Shown here piece after piece: positions 7,843-28,863 of a stretch of DNA of 64,000 nt (position 1 is the stretch's first letter; each line of letters begins with the position of its first letter). The notes under the pieces are model-generated. The model ran no database searches. It had not been told where the DNA came from and was given only the letters and a program-made list of their open reading frames with translations. This DNA comes from Streptomyces formicae. GTDB lineage: Bacteria; Actinomycetota; Actinomycetes; Streptomycetales; Streptomycetaceae. Location: the NCBI RefSeq assembly GCF_002556545.1, contig NZ_CP022685.1, positions 4,008,001-4,072,000 of the forward strand, read 5' to 3'. The position numbers and the translations under genes were made by a program.

Positions 7843-8610
7843 TTGAGCGTTCCGTACGAAACCGCGTACGAGCCACCCGAGTCGCCCGAGCCGCACTCCC
7901 CCGAGGAGCATCTCGAGCGACTTCTCGGCCGTGCGCTGAACTCCTTCGACCTGCCGGACGAGGTGATACACCGCCTCGACTCCGCCCTCGCCCACAACAG
8001 CTCGCTGCACTCCGCGCACCACAGCGCGGGCCTGCACCGCGAGACGTTCAGACACACCTGGCTGCTCGCCGACGCGACGGTGCTCACGCTCTGGGAGCTC
8101 GTCCACAACACCGCGCCGGGGCGCGCCCCGCAGCACGAGATCTACACGGACGAGGAAGAGGCGGGCGTCGCCACCTCGCGCCTGCCGCTGCCGCCCGACG
8201 CCGTCGCCTGCGACCGGCCCGTCGTGCTCCAGCTCCCGGCCGAGTCGGGCCCCCGTCACGCGTACGCCCTCGACGACTCCGCCGACCACGCGCGCCGGCT
8301 CCTGCGCCGCGCGGAGAACACCGGCGACCGCCCCGGCGACGACGTCGCGCGCCTGCTGCGCGCGGCCTTCGCCCACCAGATCACCCAGGCCTTCGGCCGT
8401 CCCTGCCTGGCCGGTGAGGCGCGCCTGTGCTTCTCGCTGTACGAGCACGCGTTCCTGCTCTTCGACGGCGGCGAGGTCAGCCTGTGGGAGGTCGAGCACA
8501 CGCTCACCCCCGACGGCCACCACCGGTGCGAGGTGTACGACACGGAGGAGGCGGCCCGCGCCGCGATGGAGCGCAGGGCCCGCGAGGGCGCGACACCGGA
8601 CCGGCCGTAG
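7843..8610 (+). CDS. Conserved Streptomyces protein with duplicated half-domains (DUF6227-like)
   Basis: Predicted soluble 255-residue protein of unknown function; I assign it tentatively to the DUF6227 group. Two similar segments are visible: ADATVLTLWELVHN...EIYTDEEEA in the first half and FDGGEVSLWEVEHT...EVYDTEEAA in the second. This suggests internal duplication of a beta-rich unit. The start is TTG at 7843, supported by GGGAGAAG just upstream; no ATG or GTG fits as well. It is separated from the preceding transpeptidase by a terminator. Confidence 0.7.
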   Translation: MSVPYETAYEPPESPEPHSPEEHLERLLGRALNSFDLPDEVIHRLDSALAHNSSLHSAHHSAGLHRETFRHTWLLADATVLTLWELVHNTAPGRAPQHEIYTDEEEAGVATSRLPLPPDAVACDRPVVLQLPAESGPRHAYALDDSADHARRLLRRAENTGDRPGDDVARLLRAAFAHQITQAFGRPCLAGEARLCFSLYEHAFLLFDGGEVSLWEVEHTLTPDGHHRCEVYDTEEAARAAMERRAREGATPDRP

Positions 8611-8971: not shown

Positions 8972-10999
8972 TCAGACCGCGGCAGGAACCTTCTCGGCCA
9001 CCGGCTCGGCGGCATCAGCCGCCTCCGGCTCCGAAGGCACCTGCTTCCGTGCGCCCTTGAGCAGCACGACCACGACCGTCGAGACGCAGACGCCCGCGGC
9101 GATGGCGACCAGGTAGAGCAGCGGCTGGCCGATGAGCGGGACCACGAAGACACCGCCGTGCGGGGCGCGCAGGGTGCAGCCGAACGCCATCGACAGGGCG
9201 CCGGTGACCGCGCCGCCCGCCATCGAGGCGGGGATCACGCGCAGCGGGTCGGCCGCGGCGAACGGGATCGCGCCCTCCGTGATGAAGGAGGCGCCGAGGA
9301 ACCAGGCGGCCTTGCCGTTCTCGCGCTCGGTCCTGGTGAAGAGACGCCCGCGTACGGTCGTGGCCAGGGCCATGGCCAGCGGCGGGACCATGCCCGCCGC
9401 CATCGCCGCGGCCATGACCTTGAGGCTGCCGTCCGTCGGGTGCGTGAGGCCGCCGATCGCGAAGGCGTACGCGACCTTGTTCAGCGGGCCGCCGAGGTCG
9501 AAGCACATCATCAGGCCGAGGATGACGCCGAGGATGATCGCGTTGGCGCCGGAGAGTCCCTCCAGCCAGTCCGTCAACGCGCTCTGCAGGGAGGCGATCG
9601 GCTTGCCCACGACGAGGAACATCAGGAAGCCGACGATCGCCGAGGAGATCAGCGGGATCACCACGACCGGCATGATGCCGCGCAGGACCGCGGGGATCCT
9701 GACCCGCTGGATGCCCATCACGACGGCGCCCGCGATCAGACCGGCGGCGAGACCGCCGAGGAAACCGGCGTTGATGGTGACCGCGACGGAGCCGCCGACG
9801 AAACCGGGTACGAGGCCGGGCCTGTCCGCCATTCCGTACGCGATGTAACCGGCGAGGACCGGGACCAGGAAGGCGAAGGCGAGGCCGCCGACCTGGAACA
9901 GGAGCGCGGCCCAGCTGGTGTGGTCCGTCCAGATGAAGTGCTCGGCGACGGACGGGGCCTTGTCGATCTTCCAGCCGCCGATGGCGAAGCCCAGGGCGAT
10001 CAGGAGGCCGCCCGCGGCCACGAACGGGACCATGTAGCTGACGCCCGACATCAGCCACTTGCGGAGCTTGGTGCCGTAGCCGTCGCTCTCGTCGCCGGTG
10101 CCTTCCACCGGGGTGGGGCCGGTCGGGGCTGTGGTCTCGCCCCTGGCGGCCTTCTCCCGTGCCTCCGCGATGAGTTCGGCGGGGCGGTTGATGCCCGCCT
10201 TCACTCCTACGTCGACGGTGGGCTTGCCCGCGAAGCGGGGCTTGTCCCTGACGGGGACGTCGTGGGCGAAGACCACGGCGTCCGCGGCGGCGATGACGGC
10301 CGGGTCCAGGCGCGTGAACCCGGCCGAGCCCTGCGTCTCGACCGTGAGTTCCACGCCTGCCTCGCGGGCCGCGTTCTCCAGGGACTCGGCGGCCATGTAG
10401 GTGTGGGCGATGCCCGTGGGGCAGGACGTGACGGCGACGATCCTGAACGGCTCGGCCGCGCCGGGGCTCGTGTCATCGTCCTCGTGCTCCGCACCGGGGG
10501 CCGTGCCCGCCCGCTCCGCCCCGGCGGAACCACCGGCCACGGCAGGAGCGGGCTCGTCGCCCCGGATCAGCGCCGCCGCCGACTCCGCGTCAGCGACGCC
10601 CCGCAGCGCCCCCGTGAACTCCCCGTCCATCAACTGCCGGGCCAGCGACGAGAGAATCGTCAGGTGCGCGTCATCGGCGCCCGCCGGGGCGGCGATCAGG
10701 AAGATCAGGTCGGCGGGGCCGTCCGGAGCACCGAAGTCGATGCCACGCTCCGACCTCCCGAACGCCAGGGTCGGCTCGGTGACGTGGGCGCTGCGGCAGT
10801 GCGGAATGCCGATGCCGCCGTCGAGCCCGGTCGGCATCTGCGCCTCACGGGCCGCCACGTCGGCGAGAAACCCCTCAAGATCGGTCACCCGGCCGAGCGC
10901 CACCATGCGCTCGGCGAGCGAACGGGCCGCGGCTTCCTTGGTTTCCGCGGACAGGTCGAGTTCGAGGTCGACCAGATCCGCCGTGATCATGTCGGTCAT
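8972..10999 (-). CDS. fruA: Fructose-specific PTS permease, EIIABC fusion
   Basis: Imports fructose across the membrane and phosphorylates it to fructose 1-phosphate. The 675 residues hold EIIA (1-150, phospho-acceptor His67 in GIGIPHCRS), then a Gly/Pro/acidic linker. EIIB follows (about 185-285, Cys193 in VTSCPTGIAHTYMAAE), then a multi-helix EIIC (about 330-650). ATG at 10999 has GAAGGAG six bases upstream. The start overlaps the stop of an unusual repeat ORF by ATGA, so translation is coupled to it. It is the last gene of the deoR-fruK-repeat ORF-fruA operon. Confidence 0.95.
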   Translation of the reverse strand: MTDMITADLVDLELDLSAETKEAAARSLAERMVALGRVTDLEGFLADVAAREAQMPTGLDGGIGIPHCRSAHVTEPTLAFGRSERGIDFGAPDGPADLIFLIAAPAGADDAHLTILSSLARQLMDGEFTGALRGVADAESAAALIRGDEPAPAVAGGSAGAERAGTAPGAEHEDDDTSPGAAEPFRIVAVTSCPTGIAHTYMAAESLENAAREAGVELTVETQGSAGFTRLDPAVIAAADAVVFAHDVPVRDKPRFAGKPTVDVGVKAGINRPAELIAEAREKAARGETTAPTGPTPVEGTGDESDGYGTKLRKWLMSGVSYMVPFVAAGGLLIALGFAIGGWKIDKAPSVAEHFIWTDHTSWAALLFQVGGLAFAFLVPVLAGYIAYGMADRPGLVPGFVGGSVAVTINAGFLGGLAAGLIAGAVVMGIQRVRIPAVLRGIMPVVVIPLISSAIVGFLMFLVVGKPIASLQSALTDWLEGLSGANAIILGVILGLMMCFDLGGPLNKVAYAFAIGGLTHPTDGSLKVMAAAMAAGMVPPLAMALATTVRGRLFTRTERENGKAAWFLGASFITEGAIPFAAADPLRVIPASMAGGAVTGALSMAFGCTLRAPHGGVFVVPLIGQPLLYLVAIAAGVCVSTVVVVLLKGARKQVPSEPEAADAAEPVAEKVPAAV

Positions 11000-11697
11000 C
11001 GCGGGCTCCTTCGCACGCGTATCGCCCGGCGGGCGGGGGCTTCTGGGGGGACGGTGGCAGGGGGATCGGTGGCGGGTCGGCTGGTGGCGGGGCAACCGGT
11101 GCCGAGGGGGTCCGGGGCGGGGAGGGCGCTGGGGCGACCCGCGACGGGGGCAACAGCCACCGGGTCGCCCGCGACAGGCGGACCGGTGACCGGGGCCCCC
11201 GCGACGGTGAGACCGGCGACCTGACAACCGGCGACCGGACCACCCGAGACAGGTGGTGCCCCGGCCGGAGCACCGGCGACCGGATCACCCGCGACAGGCA
11301 GACCCTCGACCAGGCCCCCCGCAACAACAGCAAGACCGGCAGCAAGACAACCCGAGGCAGGAGCACCGGCGACGAGACGACCCGCGACCGGCAGGCCGGC
11401 GGCCTGGGCACCGGCGACCAGACCACCCGAGACGGGTGGTGCCCCAGCCGGAGCACCAGCGACCAGATCGCCCGCGACAGGCAGGCCCTCGACCAGGGCC
11501 CCCGCAACAGCAAGACCGGCAGCAAGACAACCCGGAGCAGGAGCACCGGCGACGAGACGACCCGCGACCGGCAGGCCGGCGGCCTGGGCACCGGTGACCA
11601 GACCGCCCGGGGCGCGCAGGCCCCCGGTCGGGAAGCCGACCCGACCGCCCGTGGCAGGCAGACCGGCGACCGGGGCACCGGCGGTGGCCGGGGTCAT
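10996..11697 (-). CDS. Elastin-like pentapeptide-repeat ORF between fruK and fruA
   Basis: A 233-codon frame begins at an ATG overlapping the fruK stop (ATGA) and ends at a TGA overlapping the fruA ATG (ATGA), so it is coupled at both ends. The product is almost only Ala, Gly, Val, Pro and Leu, with a five-residue period of the form xPVAG or xLVAG (for example LPVAG, RLVAG, AQAAG, CLAAG), about 35 units. The C-terminus turns basic (RRAIRVRRSPR). A 61-residue block is duplicated in tandem. There is no signal peptide or known domain. fruK and fruA are normally adjacent, so this looks like a repeat expansion at the junction that stayed open because the unit is a multiple of three. Whether the protein accumulates cannot be told from sequence; other frames are also partly open. 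Confidence 0.55.
   Translation of the reverse strand: MTPATAGAPVAGLPATGGRVGFPTGGLRAPGGLVTGAQAAGLPVAGRLVAGAPAPGCLAAGLAVAGALVEGLPVAGDLVAGAPAGAPPVSGGLVAGAQAAGLPVAGRLVAGAPASGCLAAGLAVVAGGLVEGLPVAGDPVAGAPAGAPPVSGGPVAGCQVAGLTVAGAPVTGPPVAGDPVAVAPVAGRPSALPAPDPLGTGCPATSRPATDPPATVPPEAPARRAIRVRRSPR
11240..11602. repeat. Tandem duplication of a 180-183 bp block inside the fru repeat ORF
   Basis: The block starting CCACCCGAGAC at 11240 recurs at 11423, 183 bases later. The two copies are nearly identical over about 180 bases and differ by a 3-base indel (AVAG versus AVVAG in the encoded protein). Each is itself made of 15-bp units. Confidence 0.8.
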
Positions 11698-12641
11698 GTC
11701 GCCGGTTCCGTCAGGGGGCGGTTCAGGGGGGCCTCGGACGTGAGCGTGACCTCGTTCGGTGCCAGGTCCGAGGGGGACGGCATCGCGCTGCCCGGGAGCT
11801 GGACCGCCGCCGCGCCGTGGGCCACGGCTGAGGCGAGGGCGGTCGGGCCCGTGCCGCCCGCGATCAGGAAACCGGCGAGCGAGGAGTCACCCGCGCCGAC
11901 GTTGCTGCGCACCACGTCGACCGGAGCGCTCGCGAAGTACGTGCCCGACGCGTCGACCAGGAGCTGGCCGTCGGCGCCGAGGCTGGCGAGTACCGCGCGG
12001 GCGCCCCGCTCGCGCAGCTCCTCCGCCGCCTTGACCGCGTCGCCCACGGTGGCGAGCGGGCGGCCCACCGCCTCCGCGAGTTCCTCGGCGTTCGGCTTGA
12101 CGACGTCGGGCCGCTCCGCGAGCGCGGCGAGCAGCGCGGGGCCCGAGGTGTCCAGGGCGATCCGGGCACCTGCCGCGTGCGCGCGGGCCACCAGATCGGC
12201 GTACCAGGAAGGCTTCAGACCGCGCGGCAGACTGCCGCAGCAGGCGATCCAGTCGGCACCGGCCGAGCGCTCGCCCACCGCGGCGAGGAGCGACTCCTGC
12301 TCCGCGCCGGAGAGTTCGGGCCCCGGCGCGTTGATCTTCGTGAGCGTGCCGTCCGGCTCGGCGACCGCGATGTTGGACCGGGTCTGCCCGGCGACCGGGA
12401 CCGGGGCGGCCTCGATGCCCTGCTCGTCGAGGAGCTGGGCGACCAGCGCGCCGGGCGCGCCGCCGAGCGGCAGTACGGCGACCGTCCGCACGCCCGCCGC
12501 CGCCACGGCCCGCGAGACGTTGACGCCCTTGCCGCCCGGGTCCATGCGGTCGCCGGTGGCGCGGACGACCTCGCCCCGGTCCAGGGAGGGGACCTCGTAG
12601 GTGCGGTCGAGGGAGGGGTTCGGGGTGACGGTGAGGATCAT
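11694..12641 (-). CDS. fruK: 1-phosphofructokinase
   Basis: Phosphorylates fructose 1-phosphate to fructose 1,6-bisphosphate with ATP in the cytoplasm. It is a 315-residue PfkB-family kinase. MILTVTPNPSLDRTYEV is the typical FruK start, PGGKGVNVSRA is the substrate-binding motif, and NVGAGDSSLAGF carries the catalytic Asp and anion hole. Its ATG overlaps the stop of the upstream DeoR-type regulator (ATGA), and its stop overlaps the following repeat ORF the same way, giving one coupled operon. Confidence 0.95.
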   Translation of the reverse strand: MILTVTPNPSLDRTYEVPSLDRGEVVRATGDRMDPGGKGVNVSRAVAAAGVRTVAVLPLGGAPGALVAQLLDEQGIEAAPVPVAGQTRSNIAVAEPDGTLTKINAPGPELSGAEQESLLAAVGERSAGADWIACCGSLPRGLKPSWYADLVARAHAAGARIALDTSGPALLAALAERPDVVKPNAEELAEAVGRPLATVGDAVKAAEELRERGARAVLASLGADGQLLVDASGTYFASAPVDVVRSNVGAGDSSLAGFLIAGGTGPTALASAVAHGAAAVQLPGSAMPSPSDLAPNEVTLTSEAPLNRPLTEPAT

Positions 12642-13399
12642 GCGCGTACTACTTCCGTGCCTGCGGCCTCGATGGCCGCGGCGTCGTCGGGGTCGAGGCC
12701 GGTGTCGGTGATCAGGAGGTCCACGTCCGCGAGGTCCCCGAAGCGCGCGAAGTGCTCCTGGCCGTGCTTGGCGGAGTCCGCGAGCAGCACCACCCGGCGC
12801 GCGGCGGCGACGGCCGCGCGCTTCACGGCGGCCTCCGCGAGGTCGGGGGTGGTGAGCCCGCCCCCGGCGGAGAAGCCGTTGGCGGCGAGGAAGAGGACGT
12901 CGGCGCGGATCTCGCCGTACGCGCGCAGGGCCCAGGCGTCGACCGCCGCGCGCGTACGCTGCCTGACCCGGCCCCCGATGAGGTGGAGCTGGATGCCGGG
13001 GTGGTCGGCCAGGCGGGCCGCGGTGGGCAGTCCATGGGTGACGACGGTGAGCGTCGACTCCAGCGGGAGCGCGGCGGCGACCCGTGCGACGGTCGACCCG
13101 GCGTCGAGGATGACGCTGCCCTCGGCAGGCAGTTCGGCGAGCGCGGCGCGCGCGATGCGGTCCTTCTCGTCGGCGGCCGTGCCCTCGCGCTCGGCGAGGT
13201 CGGGCTCGAAGTCGAGCCGCCCCGCCGGTATGGCACCGCCGTGCACCCGGCGCAGCAGTCCCGCCCGGTCGAGCGCCTTCAGGTCGCGCCGGATGGTCTC
13301 CGCGGTGACCTGGAACGTCTCGGCGAGGGACAGCACGTCGACCCGCCCGCCGTCGCGCGCGAGCCGCAGGATCTCCTGCTGCCGCTCCGGTGCGTACAT
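12638..13399 (-). CDS. DeoR-family transcriptional regulator of the fru operon
   Basis: Predicted fructose-operon repressor of 253 residues. It has an N-terminal DeoR helix-turn-helix (ERQQEILRLARDGGRVDVLSL then VTAETIRRDLKALDRAGLLRRVHGG) and a C-terminal sugar-phosphate sensing domain. The likely effector is fructose 1-phosphate, inferred from context. ATG at 13399 is preceded by GGAGG; an in-frame start 21 bases earlier is less likely. It is the first gene of the fru operon and probably autoregulates it. Confidence 0.9.
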   Translation of the reverse strand: MYAPERQQEILRLARDGGRVDVLSLAETFQVTAETIRRDLKALDRAGLLRRVHGGAIPAGRLDFEPDLAEREGTAADEKDRIARAALAELPAEGSVILDAGSTVARVAAALPLESTLTVVTHGLPTAARLADHPGIQLHLIGGRVRQRTRAAVDAWALRAYGEIRADVLFLAANGFSAGGGLTTPDLAEAAVKRAAVAAARRVVLLADSAKHGQEHFARFGDLADVDLLITDTGLDPDDAAAIEAAGTEVVRA

Positions 13400-13563
13400 G
13401 TCCGTTTGCCTCCGCCGCATGCCCGAACGTGTGGTTTCACTCGGAGACTACGGCTGGAATTCCGGAAAGTAAACAGATTCGGGGGCCGATCGGACATGAA
13501 CGGACTTCCGTCCCGAGGGGAACGCCCCTTGGCCCCGGAGCGCACGAGGACCTACGACCTACG

Positions 13564-13595
13564 GCCTGCTGCCTGCTGCCTGCTGCCTGCTGCCT
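13564..13595. repeat. Heptamer tandem repeat GCCTGCT, about 4.6 copies
   Basis: Four full copies of GCCTGCT plus GCCT sit just downstream of the TetR gene's stop and upstream of the fru operon. It is non-coding and one of several short tandem repeats at gene borders here. Confidence 0.8.
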
Positions 13596-17491: not shown

Positions 17492-18475
17492 ATGACGGCG
17501 GACGGTACGGCGGCGGGTACCGACACCCCCGCCCGGCTCTTCCAGCTCCTCTCCCTCCTCCAGACGCCCCGCGAGTGGCCGGGGGCCGAGCTCTCCGAAC
17601 GGCTCGGCGTCAGCAGGCGCACCGTACGGCGCGACATCGACCGGCTCCGGGACCTCGGCTATCCGGTGCGGGCCAGCCAGGGGGCGGCGGGCGGCTACCG
17701 GCTCGTCGCGGGCAAGGCGATGCCGCCGCTGGTCCTCGACGACGAGGAGGCGGTGGCGATCGCGGTGGGGCTGCGGGCCGGGGCCGGGCACGCGGTGGAG
17801 GGCGTCGAGGAGGCATCGGTACGGGCGCTCGCCAAACTGGAACAGGTCCTGCCCGCGCGCCTGCGCCACCGGGTCTCGGCGTTGCAGATCGCCACGACGC
17901 CGCTGACCAGCGGGGACGGGGCGAGCATCGCGCCGGAGACGCTGACGGTGATGGCGTCGGCCGCGGCGGGCCACGAGCGCCTCCGGTTCGCCTACCGCGC
18001 GGGCGACGGCACGGAGTCGCGCCGCCTGACCGAGCCGTACCGCCTGGTCTCGACCGGGCGGCGCTGGTACCTCGTGGCGTTCGACATCGACCGCGAGGAC
18101 TGGCGCACCTTCCGGGTCGACCGGGTATCCGACCCGTTCGCGACGGGGGCGCGGTTCGTACCGCGGGAGCTGCCCGCGGGGGATGCGGCGGAGTTCATCA
18201 GGGAGTCGATGTGGCGGGGCCGCCAGACATACGACGTGGACGTGACGTTCGCGGCGCCCGCGGTGTTCGTCGCGGCGCGGTTGCCGGCGGTGCTCGGCCC
18301 TCTCGATACGGTCGACGACACCACCTGCCGCCTGCGATGCACGGCGTCCGACTCCATCGAGTGGCTGGCGATCCGCCTCGCGCTCACGGACTGTGAGTTC
18401 ACGGTGCGGGGTCCTGCGGAGCTGGTGGCGTGTCTGTCGGAGATGGCGGGGCGGATGGCGCGGTCCACGGGGTGA
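17492..18475 (+). CDS. HTH/WYL-domain transcriptional regulator (YafY type)
   Basis: Transcription factor of 327 residues. It has an HTH_11 head (FQLLSLLQTPREWPGAELSERLGVSRRTVRRDIDRLRDLGYPV) and a central WYL domain whose signature appears as RRWYLVAFDIDREDWRTFRVDRV. A WCX C-terminal extension follows. WYL domains sense ligands or nucleic acid. Its divergent MFS neighbour is the probable target. Confidence 0.9.
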   Translation: MTADGTAAGTDTPARLFQLLSLLQTPREWPGAELSERLGVSRRTVRRDIDRLRDLGYPVRASQGAAGGYRLVAGKAMPPLVLDDEEAVAIAVGLRAGAGHAVEGVEEASVRALAKLEQVLPARLRHRVSALQIATTPLTSGDGASIAPETLTVMASAAAGHERLRFAYRAGDGTESRRLTEPYRLVSTGRRWYLVAFDIDREDWRTFRVDRVSDPFATGARFVPRELPAGDAAEFIRESMWRGRQTYDVDVTFAAPAVFVAARLPAVLGPLDTVDDTTCRLRCTASDSIEWLAIRLALTDCEFTVRGPAELVACLSEMAGRMARSTG

Positions 18476-28374: not shown

Positions 28375-28863
28375 ATGTGGGTCCTTTCGCGGACATGCGA
28401 ATGAGGGGGCCCGGCGGGGCGGCATGAACCACGCCCCGTACGACGGGCGGAACGCGCGCTTCGAGAGCGCGGAGAGAAGGCCCGAGGGGCCTGACAGTCC
28501 CCCGGGAATCCGGGAGGAAGGAAGAATTGCGGCTCCCGGCCACGGAAAGGGCCCGGAAGCGAAACACAGCACGGGCGTCCCGACGGGACGTACAACCGCA
28601 CTGCTTGCAAGGTAACACACGCCTCCGACGCGGGGCAGGGGCCAAAAGACCCTGGCCCCACGCGGCACCGCAGCCCGCTCGACCGCGGGCTGCGGGCTGC
28701 GGGCTGCGGGCTGCGGGCTGCGGGCTGCGGGCTGCGGGCTGCGGGCTGCGGGCTGCGGGCTGCGGGCTGCGGGCTGCGGGCGAACGCTCCTACGTCACGG
28801 GGCGGTGCGGAGGTACGGGTGGGTGGGTGGGAAAGGTATCCGCCGCGAAGCGGCGGGACAGGG
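28375..28863. other. Long rho upstream region, no gene
   Basis: Nearly 490 bases separate the rho start from the fepC-like stop. I see no supported gene. The stretch carries the rho ribosome site, a probable long leader and promoter, and the heptamer array at 28685-28781. An in-frame extension of rho upstream exists but lacks Rho similarity and a ribosome site. Confidence 0.6.
28685..28781. repeat. Heptamer minisatellite GCGGGCT, about 14 copies
   Basis: The unit GCGGGCT is repeated perfectly for 97 bases. The plus strand has fourteen GGG runs spaced by four bases, which fits a G-quadruplex pattern. The minus strand, which would be the rho leader if transcription starts upstream, reads AGCCCGC repeated. 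There are no spacers, so it is not a CRISPR array. Confidence 0.9.

Follow-up and report, generated by a model that had tools for sequence, protein, structure and literature searches.

A reading frame between fruK and fruA in Streptomyces appears to be kept open for translation rather than for its peptide

Introduction

Why would a 233-codon open reading frame (ORF) with a body of tandem repeats sit between two genes of a fructose operon? The question is raised by a stretch of 64,000 nucleotides (nt) from Streptomyces formicae, which we call the window (RefSeq assembly GCF_002556545.1, contig NZ_CP022685.1, positions 4,008,001 to 4,072,000), from a 9.61-Mb single-contig genome. On the minus strand of the window, the gene order is a fruR-type DeoR regulator, fruK (1-phosphofructokinase), the 233-codon ORF, and fruA (the EIIABC component of the fructose phosphotransferase system). 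A first-pass annotation, made from the window's letters, had located this frame between fruK and fruA and had noted that it overlaps each neighbour by ATGA. Both points are borne out (Table 1). The annotation offered two explanations: either a novel low-complexity protein is made, or the expansion is tolerated only because it keeps translational coupling intact. After comparing the junction across many genomes, we think it likely that the ORF serves as a spacer whose translation passes ribosomes on from fruK to fruA, rather than as a gene kept for its protein, and that in one clade it may act as a bldA-dependent gate.

Most of the sampled junctions contain an intact spacer ORF

The first-pass annotation took fruK and fruA to be normally adjacent and the ORF to be an insertion. 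For the junctions that we sampled, this is wrong: 179 of 216 have an intact spacer ORF between the two genes. These ORFs are 11 to 233 codons long (median 61), and the window's copy is the longest. (The shortest case, L117 with 11 codons, is borderline: its end is a GTGA that precedes the usual fruA ATG. After it come cases of 14-17 codons.) At the fruK side, the overlap is ATGA in 165 of the intact ORFs and GTGA in 14; at the fruA side, it is ATGA in 176 and GTGA in 3. The other 37 junctions are direct fruK-fruA overlaps (15), short gaps (4), or spacers with a non-intact frame (18). The comparison across Streptomyces that the annotation had proposed shows that the ORF is widespread and that frameshifted or otherwise broken spacers also exist (the 18 of 216).

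We gathered the junctions through a similarity search with the window's FruK, which over-represents near relatives. One set, of named records, is the best 80 of 463 loci. The second set derives from 392 Streptomyces genomes, 286 of which have a FruK match (106 have none at the threshold), and only the listed ones were fetched. A fruA match was missing from 16 loci in the first round and from 6 more among the added loci. The 252 loci with both genes collapse to 229 distinct junctions. Setting aside 10 from outgroup genera of the family and 3 that contain N leaves the 216, from Streptomyces and near genera. (After we redefined the fruA start and added loci, the intact count moved from 167/197 to 179/216.) By the same criterion, none of the 10 outgroup-genus junctions has an intact spacer ORF. 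In a later sample of 40 fetched junctions, 39 have both genes: 33 have intact spacer ORFs, 3 are direct overlaps, 2 are broken, and 1 has an unusable start. On the tree, spacer versus direct overlap requires 27 changes, with no clear order of gains and losses.

Some draft contigs (L141, L166, L167, L170, L190, L193, and L312) break off 26-129 nt past the fruK match, as if the spacer resisted assembly.

The frame is kept and the peptide is free

That intact ORFs contain no stops is true by construction, and we excluded it as evidence. We counted stops instead in spacers for which openness was not a criterion. For 171 spacers of at least 40 nt whose length is 1 mod 3, the 11,406 codons of frame 0 are free of stops; the other two forward frames contain 157 and 87. 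If any length mod 3 is allowed (190 spacers of at least 40 nt with ATGA or GTGA at fruK; 12,295 codons), there are 5, 180, and 90 stops in frames 0, 1, and 2. The corresponding counts for 35 spacers from the later sample, also not selected for openness, are 1, 35, and 12. (Mononucleotide shuffles of the spacers remain open 56% of the time.)

Changes in length also respect the frame. We compared near pairs, which are 95 disjoint pairs chosen greedily by fruK DNA identity (at least 85%) and are not sisters read from a tree. In the 91 pairs with a spacer on both sides, the two lengths are equal in 13, differ by a multiple of three in 64, and differ otherwise in 14 (2 of which are outgroup pairs). 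In other words, 64 of 78 length changes are in threes, versus one third expected (p about 1e-18). Among the 104 intact ORFs that hold a tandem array, the period of the best array is divisible by 3 in 87; the broken spacers L111, L178, and L181 hold units of 14, 28, and 35 bp. The length itself varies widely. It may tune fruA translation, as the annotation suggested, but the near relatives L136 and L164 have spacers of 598 and 208 nt, and a severalfold difference between near relatives argues against a set length.

The encoded peptide shows no such constraint. The ratio of nonsynonymous to synonymous substitution rates (dN/dS) is 1.06 in the spacer (50 pairs, 2,419 codons) versus 0.098 in fruK from the same pairs. 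Substitutions in these spacers are spread evenly across the codon positions (321, 355, and 296). The 50 pairs are those of the 95 that pass a set of filters, which favour conserved stretches: fruK identity of 0.90-0.999, intact frames of 40 nt or more on both sides, 10 or more aligned codons, and aligned identity of 70% or more.

Together, these patterns indicate that selection acts on the spacer's translatability and not on the peptide that it encodes. This leaves the first of the annotation's two explanations, a novel low-complexity protein as the selected product, unsupported: dN/dS is about 1, and lengths range from 11-17 codons up. The second explanation, tolerance because coupling is kept intact, is supported, as the frame and its openness are kept while the peptide drifts.

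Ribosome-binding sites and a C-rich tract

The last 30 nt or so before fruA are conserved as nucleotides: the third codon positions are near-fixed and two second positions are variable. This block includes a Shine-Dalgarno (SD) sequence for fruA, AAGGAG, which is found in 162 of 184 spacers. Upstream of the start of the spacer ORF, GGAG is found in 159 of 184, and the stricter AGGAG or GGAGG in 67 of 179.

As a separate observation, the block (11000-11028 in the window, and in relatives) contains an in-frame ATA, a codon that is seldom used. It lies eight codons before the ORF's stop and is near-fixed across species. A pause at this codon would cover the fruA SD.

A rut region is a C-rich, G-poor stretch, and the tract ahead of the block has this composition. 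Over 128 spacers, C makes up 62.7% and G 13.3% of the 60 nt ahead of the block, and the C-over-G skew exceeds 0.3 in 123 of these 128, as compared to 8.1% of fruK windows. As a control, we used 464 kb of the window's own genome, in which 8 of 82 co-directed gaps exceed a skew of 0.3 and the fru gap ranks second. The resemblance suggests a rut-like stretch that could load Rho. In a limited folding test, the consensus fold was weak and no attenuator structure was found. A hairpin in the conserved block (CGGGC...GCCCG) that would mask the SD was a candidate that we set aside. We also looked through the same 464 kb for similar spacers, using a crude gene caller, and obtained 6 chains. The fru spacer is among them, and two others resemble ordinary genes by their codon-position composition.

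How the spacer might work

The spacer ORF is probably translated. Ribosomes that finish fruK would reinitiate at the first ATGA and cross the spacer. Having terminated at the second ATGA, they would start again on fruA with the help of its strong SD. Selection for a translatable spacer would keep fruA coupled to fruK, and it would ensure that the C-rich RNA before fruA is not left bare, where it could load Rho. If in-frame, stop-free insertions are tolerated, then slippage and tandem duplication could freely lengthen or shorten the spacer. The window species is the extreme case of repeat growth. Its nearest relatives by FruK carry spacer ORFs of 24-32 codons, so the window's copy is a lineage-specific expansion in frame. 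Unrelated repeats have expanded in other species (GPGLTG in L122, GATGAT in L067, and SGPSGR in L085).

In-frame TTA codons in one clade

TTA codons are concentrated in the spacer's reading frame. The 179 intact ORFs have 67 TTA codons in frame 0 and 13 and 4 in the other frames; shuffles lead us to expect 24. There is no TTA in 56,415 codons of fruK, nor in the first 150 codons of fruA at 229 loci. A TTA is present in 66 of the 179 intact ORFs, and 65 of these 66 have exactly one. All of the TTA-bearing ORFs lie inside one clade of 123 tips (66 of its 112 intact ORFs). On the tree, the presence of TTA requires 18 changes, versus 53 with shuffled labels.

These codons are retained in frame. 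Across near pairs, the relative shares an in-frame TTA in 44 of 59 cases. For an out-of-frame TTA the figure is 0 of 15, and for other all-AT codons it is 18 of 70. Counted by pairs, TTA is on both sides in 23 of the 35 pairs that have one. In the later sample (35 spacers, without selection for openness), the counts of TTA by frame are 13, 1, and 6.

One reading of this pattern makes the spacer a gate, or an attenuator, that depends on bldA: ribosomes would stall at UUA when the bldA tRNA is scarce, and polarity would lower fruA. Forms without TTA, the window's among them, would then be relics or plain spacers. We lean slightly towards this reading, which extends the proposal of a translated spacer and does not exclude it. 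The TTA is retained as a codon, the in-frame excess recurs in the later sample, and the codon is nearly always single. There is also a precedent in Streptomyces coelicolor. In a bldA mutant, the product of the TTA-containing gene SCO6638 is absent, and the product of SCO6637, whose start overlaps the stop of SCO6638, is less abundant (PMC2000904). That paper proposes polarity from the UUA codon via the overlapping downstream gene. In the same way, the retained UUA in this one large clade, which does not include the window species, would place fruA, and not fruK, behind the bldA tRNA.

A fuller version is that the spacer represents a new class of control element inside an operon, conserved genus-wide only as a translatable frame that separates the genes of two enzymes from the same pathway, a "sequence-free" gate ORF. 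Its peptide would be neutral and its length free, with a single UUA that is placed and selected, tying synthesis of the transporter to the bldA tRNA, which is developmental, while the upstream kinase escapes. We offer this version tentatively and would stop just short of betting on it.

A published table lists a TTA in SCO3195 for 5 of 14 Streptomyces genomes (PMC4255298, Table 2). By locus numbering, SCO3195 may correspond to a DUF6227 gene, and we do not claim this row as the spacer: SCO3195 adjoins fruA (SCO3196) by numbering, and in the window a DUF6227 gene (7843-8610, plus strand) adjoins fruA.

Points against, and other explanations

Several observations weigh against a translated spacer with a gate in one clade. 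First, within the 50 pairs, single alignment gaps show no clear preference for multiples of three (of 187 gaps, 74, 65, and 48 by length mod 3); this is partly alignment noise, and it implies that net length is what is kept. Second, the 18 non-intact spacers and 15 direct overlaps among the 216 junctions imply that the element is dispensable over evolutionary time. Third, fruA has a strong SD of its own, so it may also start independently. Fourth, we considered whether the C-rich tract keeps this SD open, and this was unsupported: the predicted accessibility of the SD is 0.476 for native sequences and 0.494 with a randomised upstream sequence, and the native value was higher in 29 of 60.

The remaining points concern TTA. 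It is confined to one clade, and 113 of the 179 intact ORFs have none. The window species is without it too; its ORF has neither the in-frame TTA of a bldA-dependent gene nor the conserved sensor codon of a leader ORF. One inherited site accounts for much of the signal, as 53 of 91 module-like matches have the in-frame TTA at the identical place, which makes retention the test. The codons that flank the TTA are themselves kept in 32 of 59 cases on either side. Each pair entered the retention counts in both directions, which makes the Fisher p-values too small. The signal arose, unplanned, from scanning codon counts, and the in-frame excess is weaker in the later sample.

Could the spacer instead encode a functional, intrinsically disordered protein, rich in Pro, Ala, and Thr, whose composition rather than sequence is selected? 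Such a protein would explain why the frame stays open, and frame 0 does have a composition of its own (P 19%, A 15%, R 11%, T 10%). Also, one member is matched by 64 database proteins, and those listed by name are called hypothetical, uncharacterized, or putative protein. But the dN/dS and the range of lengths given above argue against it. The conserved C-terminal RRSPR is accounted for at the nucleotide level by the fruA SD. The shortest members (14-17 codons) have little beyond the codons of the ribosome-binding site, and the 15 direct-overlap junctions have no such protein. Overall, we view a selected disordered protein as improbable.

Another proposal is that the conserved block before fruA is a cis-element for fruA (an internal promoter, an operator, or an RNA structure) and that the ORF is incidental. 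The block is conserved as nucleotides, and its 18-base core has just one exact match and one match with 2 mismatches in the whole genome. However, the block spans only the 3' end of the spacer and contains the SD, and maintenance of the frame elsewhere in the spacer would be unexplained. Also, the window contains the block a single time when up to 3 mismatches are allowed, so the block is not repeated there as an operator. A cis-element with an incidental ORF seems about as improbable to us as the disordered protein.

Finally, it is very improbable that the junction simply tolerates neutral filler, with an openness that comes from GC-rich sequence or from faulty assembly: the dN/dS of about 1, the shuffles, the single gaps, and the draft contigs that break off just past fruK would fit, but the stops by frame, the net length changes in threes, and the in-frame retention of TTA would not, and the window's genome is a single 9.6-Mb contig.

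Broken spacers

The 18 non-intact spacers are of several kinds. In seven (L010, L028, L045, L071, L153, L186, and L220), the ORF starts and meets no stop inside the spacer, which ribosomes would therefore still cross. In three of these (L045, L071, and L153), the shifted spacer continues open in the frame of fruA, so it would be an N-terminal extension fused to FruA. L207 has a stop about 30 nt before fruA, and L111, L123, L181, and L210 have earlier stops. The other six have CTGA (L037, L178, L232, and L278) or TAG (L262 and L266) at the fruK stop, so the ATG or GTG start of the spacer is missing.

On the tree, whose labels for broken spacers predate the final class assignment, 11 of the 18 are single among intact relatives (L010, L045, L071, L111, L123, L153, L181, L186, L207, L210, and L220). 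As for the rest, L178, L232, and L037 cluster with the short-gap junctions L036 and L041, L262 and L266 are paired, and L028 and L278 are in a mixed clade.

Relation to known systems

Overlap coupling, leader ORFs, and bldA control are already known kinds of regulation. Regulatory leader peptides and upstream ORFs are short ORFs whose translation, not product, controls the next gene. The spacer ORF is similar in that its frame and initiation are conserved and its product is not. Its translation, rather than its product, would control fruA, with a rare codon as the sensor in the TTA clade. The spacer differs in being inside an operon, in overlapping both of its neighbours, and in having no fixed sequence or length.

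Termination-reinitiation at ATGA overlaps (PMC6728339) is similar in that stop and start codons of co-directed genes overlap, which is the case at both joints of the spacer, with an SD before each start in most relatives. It is described for gene pairs, whereas here the conserved thing is a third frame, without peptide constraint, between two genes. As in regulation by bldA and TTA codons (PMC4255298, PMC2000904), an in-frame TTA appears to be selected, and polarity onto a coupled gene was proposed for SCO6638-SCO6637. In contrast, the fru TTA sits in a peptide-unconstrained frame next to a sugar-transport gene, and the window's copy lacks it. In the gal operon of E. coli, when the next gene fails to start, Rho-dependent termination occurs near the cistron joint (PMC9239205); in the fru spacer, the C-rich tract is only suggestive of this. 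Last, the pervasively translated short ORFs of Mycobacterium tuberculosis (PMC9094748), another high-GC actinobacterium, are mostly under little purifying selection at the codon level. The fru spacer differs from them in that the frame itself is conserved across many species.

In S. coelicolor, fruK is SCO3197 and fruA is SCO3196 (PMC4457907). These tags are consecutive, so the spacer has no gene number there. We found no description of the fruK-fruA spacer in the literature that we searched, which mostly did not extend to subscription journals.

At this junction, natural sequence tells selection for being translated apart from selection for a protein. There are 179 distinct alleles, which share descent and are hence not independent, with dN/dS near 1 in the tested pairs and very few stops. 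The set could be used to measure how far ribosomes pass through an ORF that is neutral. Should the TTA gate be real, a carbon-uptake operon would join the bldA network via an element without a gene number in S. coelicolor, and other unannotated TTA gates may exist.

The window's ORF and its surroundings

The first-pass annotation described the window's ORF as elastin-like and made almost only of xPVAG and xLVAG pentapeptides. The repeats are real: the body consists of 15-, 30-, and 45-bp arrays together with a longer unit of 183 bp (Table 1). But the wording was too strong, as strict x[PL]VAG units number 13 and cover 65 of the 233 residues (160 with a relaxed pattern). Elastin-type repeats are VPGXG. 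The ORF is rich in Ala, Gly, Pro, and Val and has no VPG at all, so "elastin-like" is a loose label. We ruled out an elastin-like or extensin protein: besides the lack of VPG, the only Pfam match is a sub-threshold one to Extensin_1 (21.3 bits, with a cut-off of 105). A protein search with the ORF scored 7,996 candidates, and none, its own protein included, had E <= 1e-3; this negative is weak because the query is so repetitive.

Table 1. The fru operon and spacer features in the window (positions count from the first letter of the window)
Feature	Position	Strand	Basis or remark
DeoR-family regulator gene (fruR)	12638..13420	-	Pfam DeoRC and HTH_DeoR
fruK, 1-phosphofructokinase (PfkB)	11694..12641	-	PfkB domain match
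Weak SD-like GGAA before the spacer ORF start	11706-11709	-	sequence
ATGA overlap, fruK stop and spacer ORF start	11694..11697	-	sequence
Spacer ORF, 233 codons, Ala/Gly/Pro/Val-rich, without TTA	10996..11697	-	longest of the 179 intact ORFs
183-bp (61-codon) unit, 2.3 copies, within 15/30/45-bp arrays	11198..11609	-	tandem repeat analysis
Tract rich in C and poor in G (61.7% C, 18.3% G), ahead of the block with the fruA SD	11034..11093	-	composition
Nucleotide-conserved block CGGGCGATACGCGTGCGAAGGAGCCCGCG with the fruA SD AAGGAG	11000..11028	-	third codon positions conserved, two second positions vary
ATGA overlap, spacer ORF stop and fruA start	10996..10999	-	sequence
fruA, fructose phosphotransferase system EIIABC (EIIA-EIIB-EIIC)	8972..10999	-	domain matches

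Elsewhere in the window, the crude gene caller proposed a candidate ORF near 18475 on the plus strand (79 amino acids), which has a non-coding-like composition and overlaps two neighbours. The window also has perfect 7-bp tandem repeats: GCGGGCT in 13.9 copies (28685-28781) and GCCTGCT in 4.6 copies (13564-13595).

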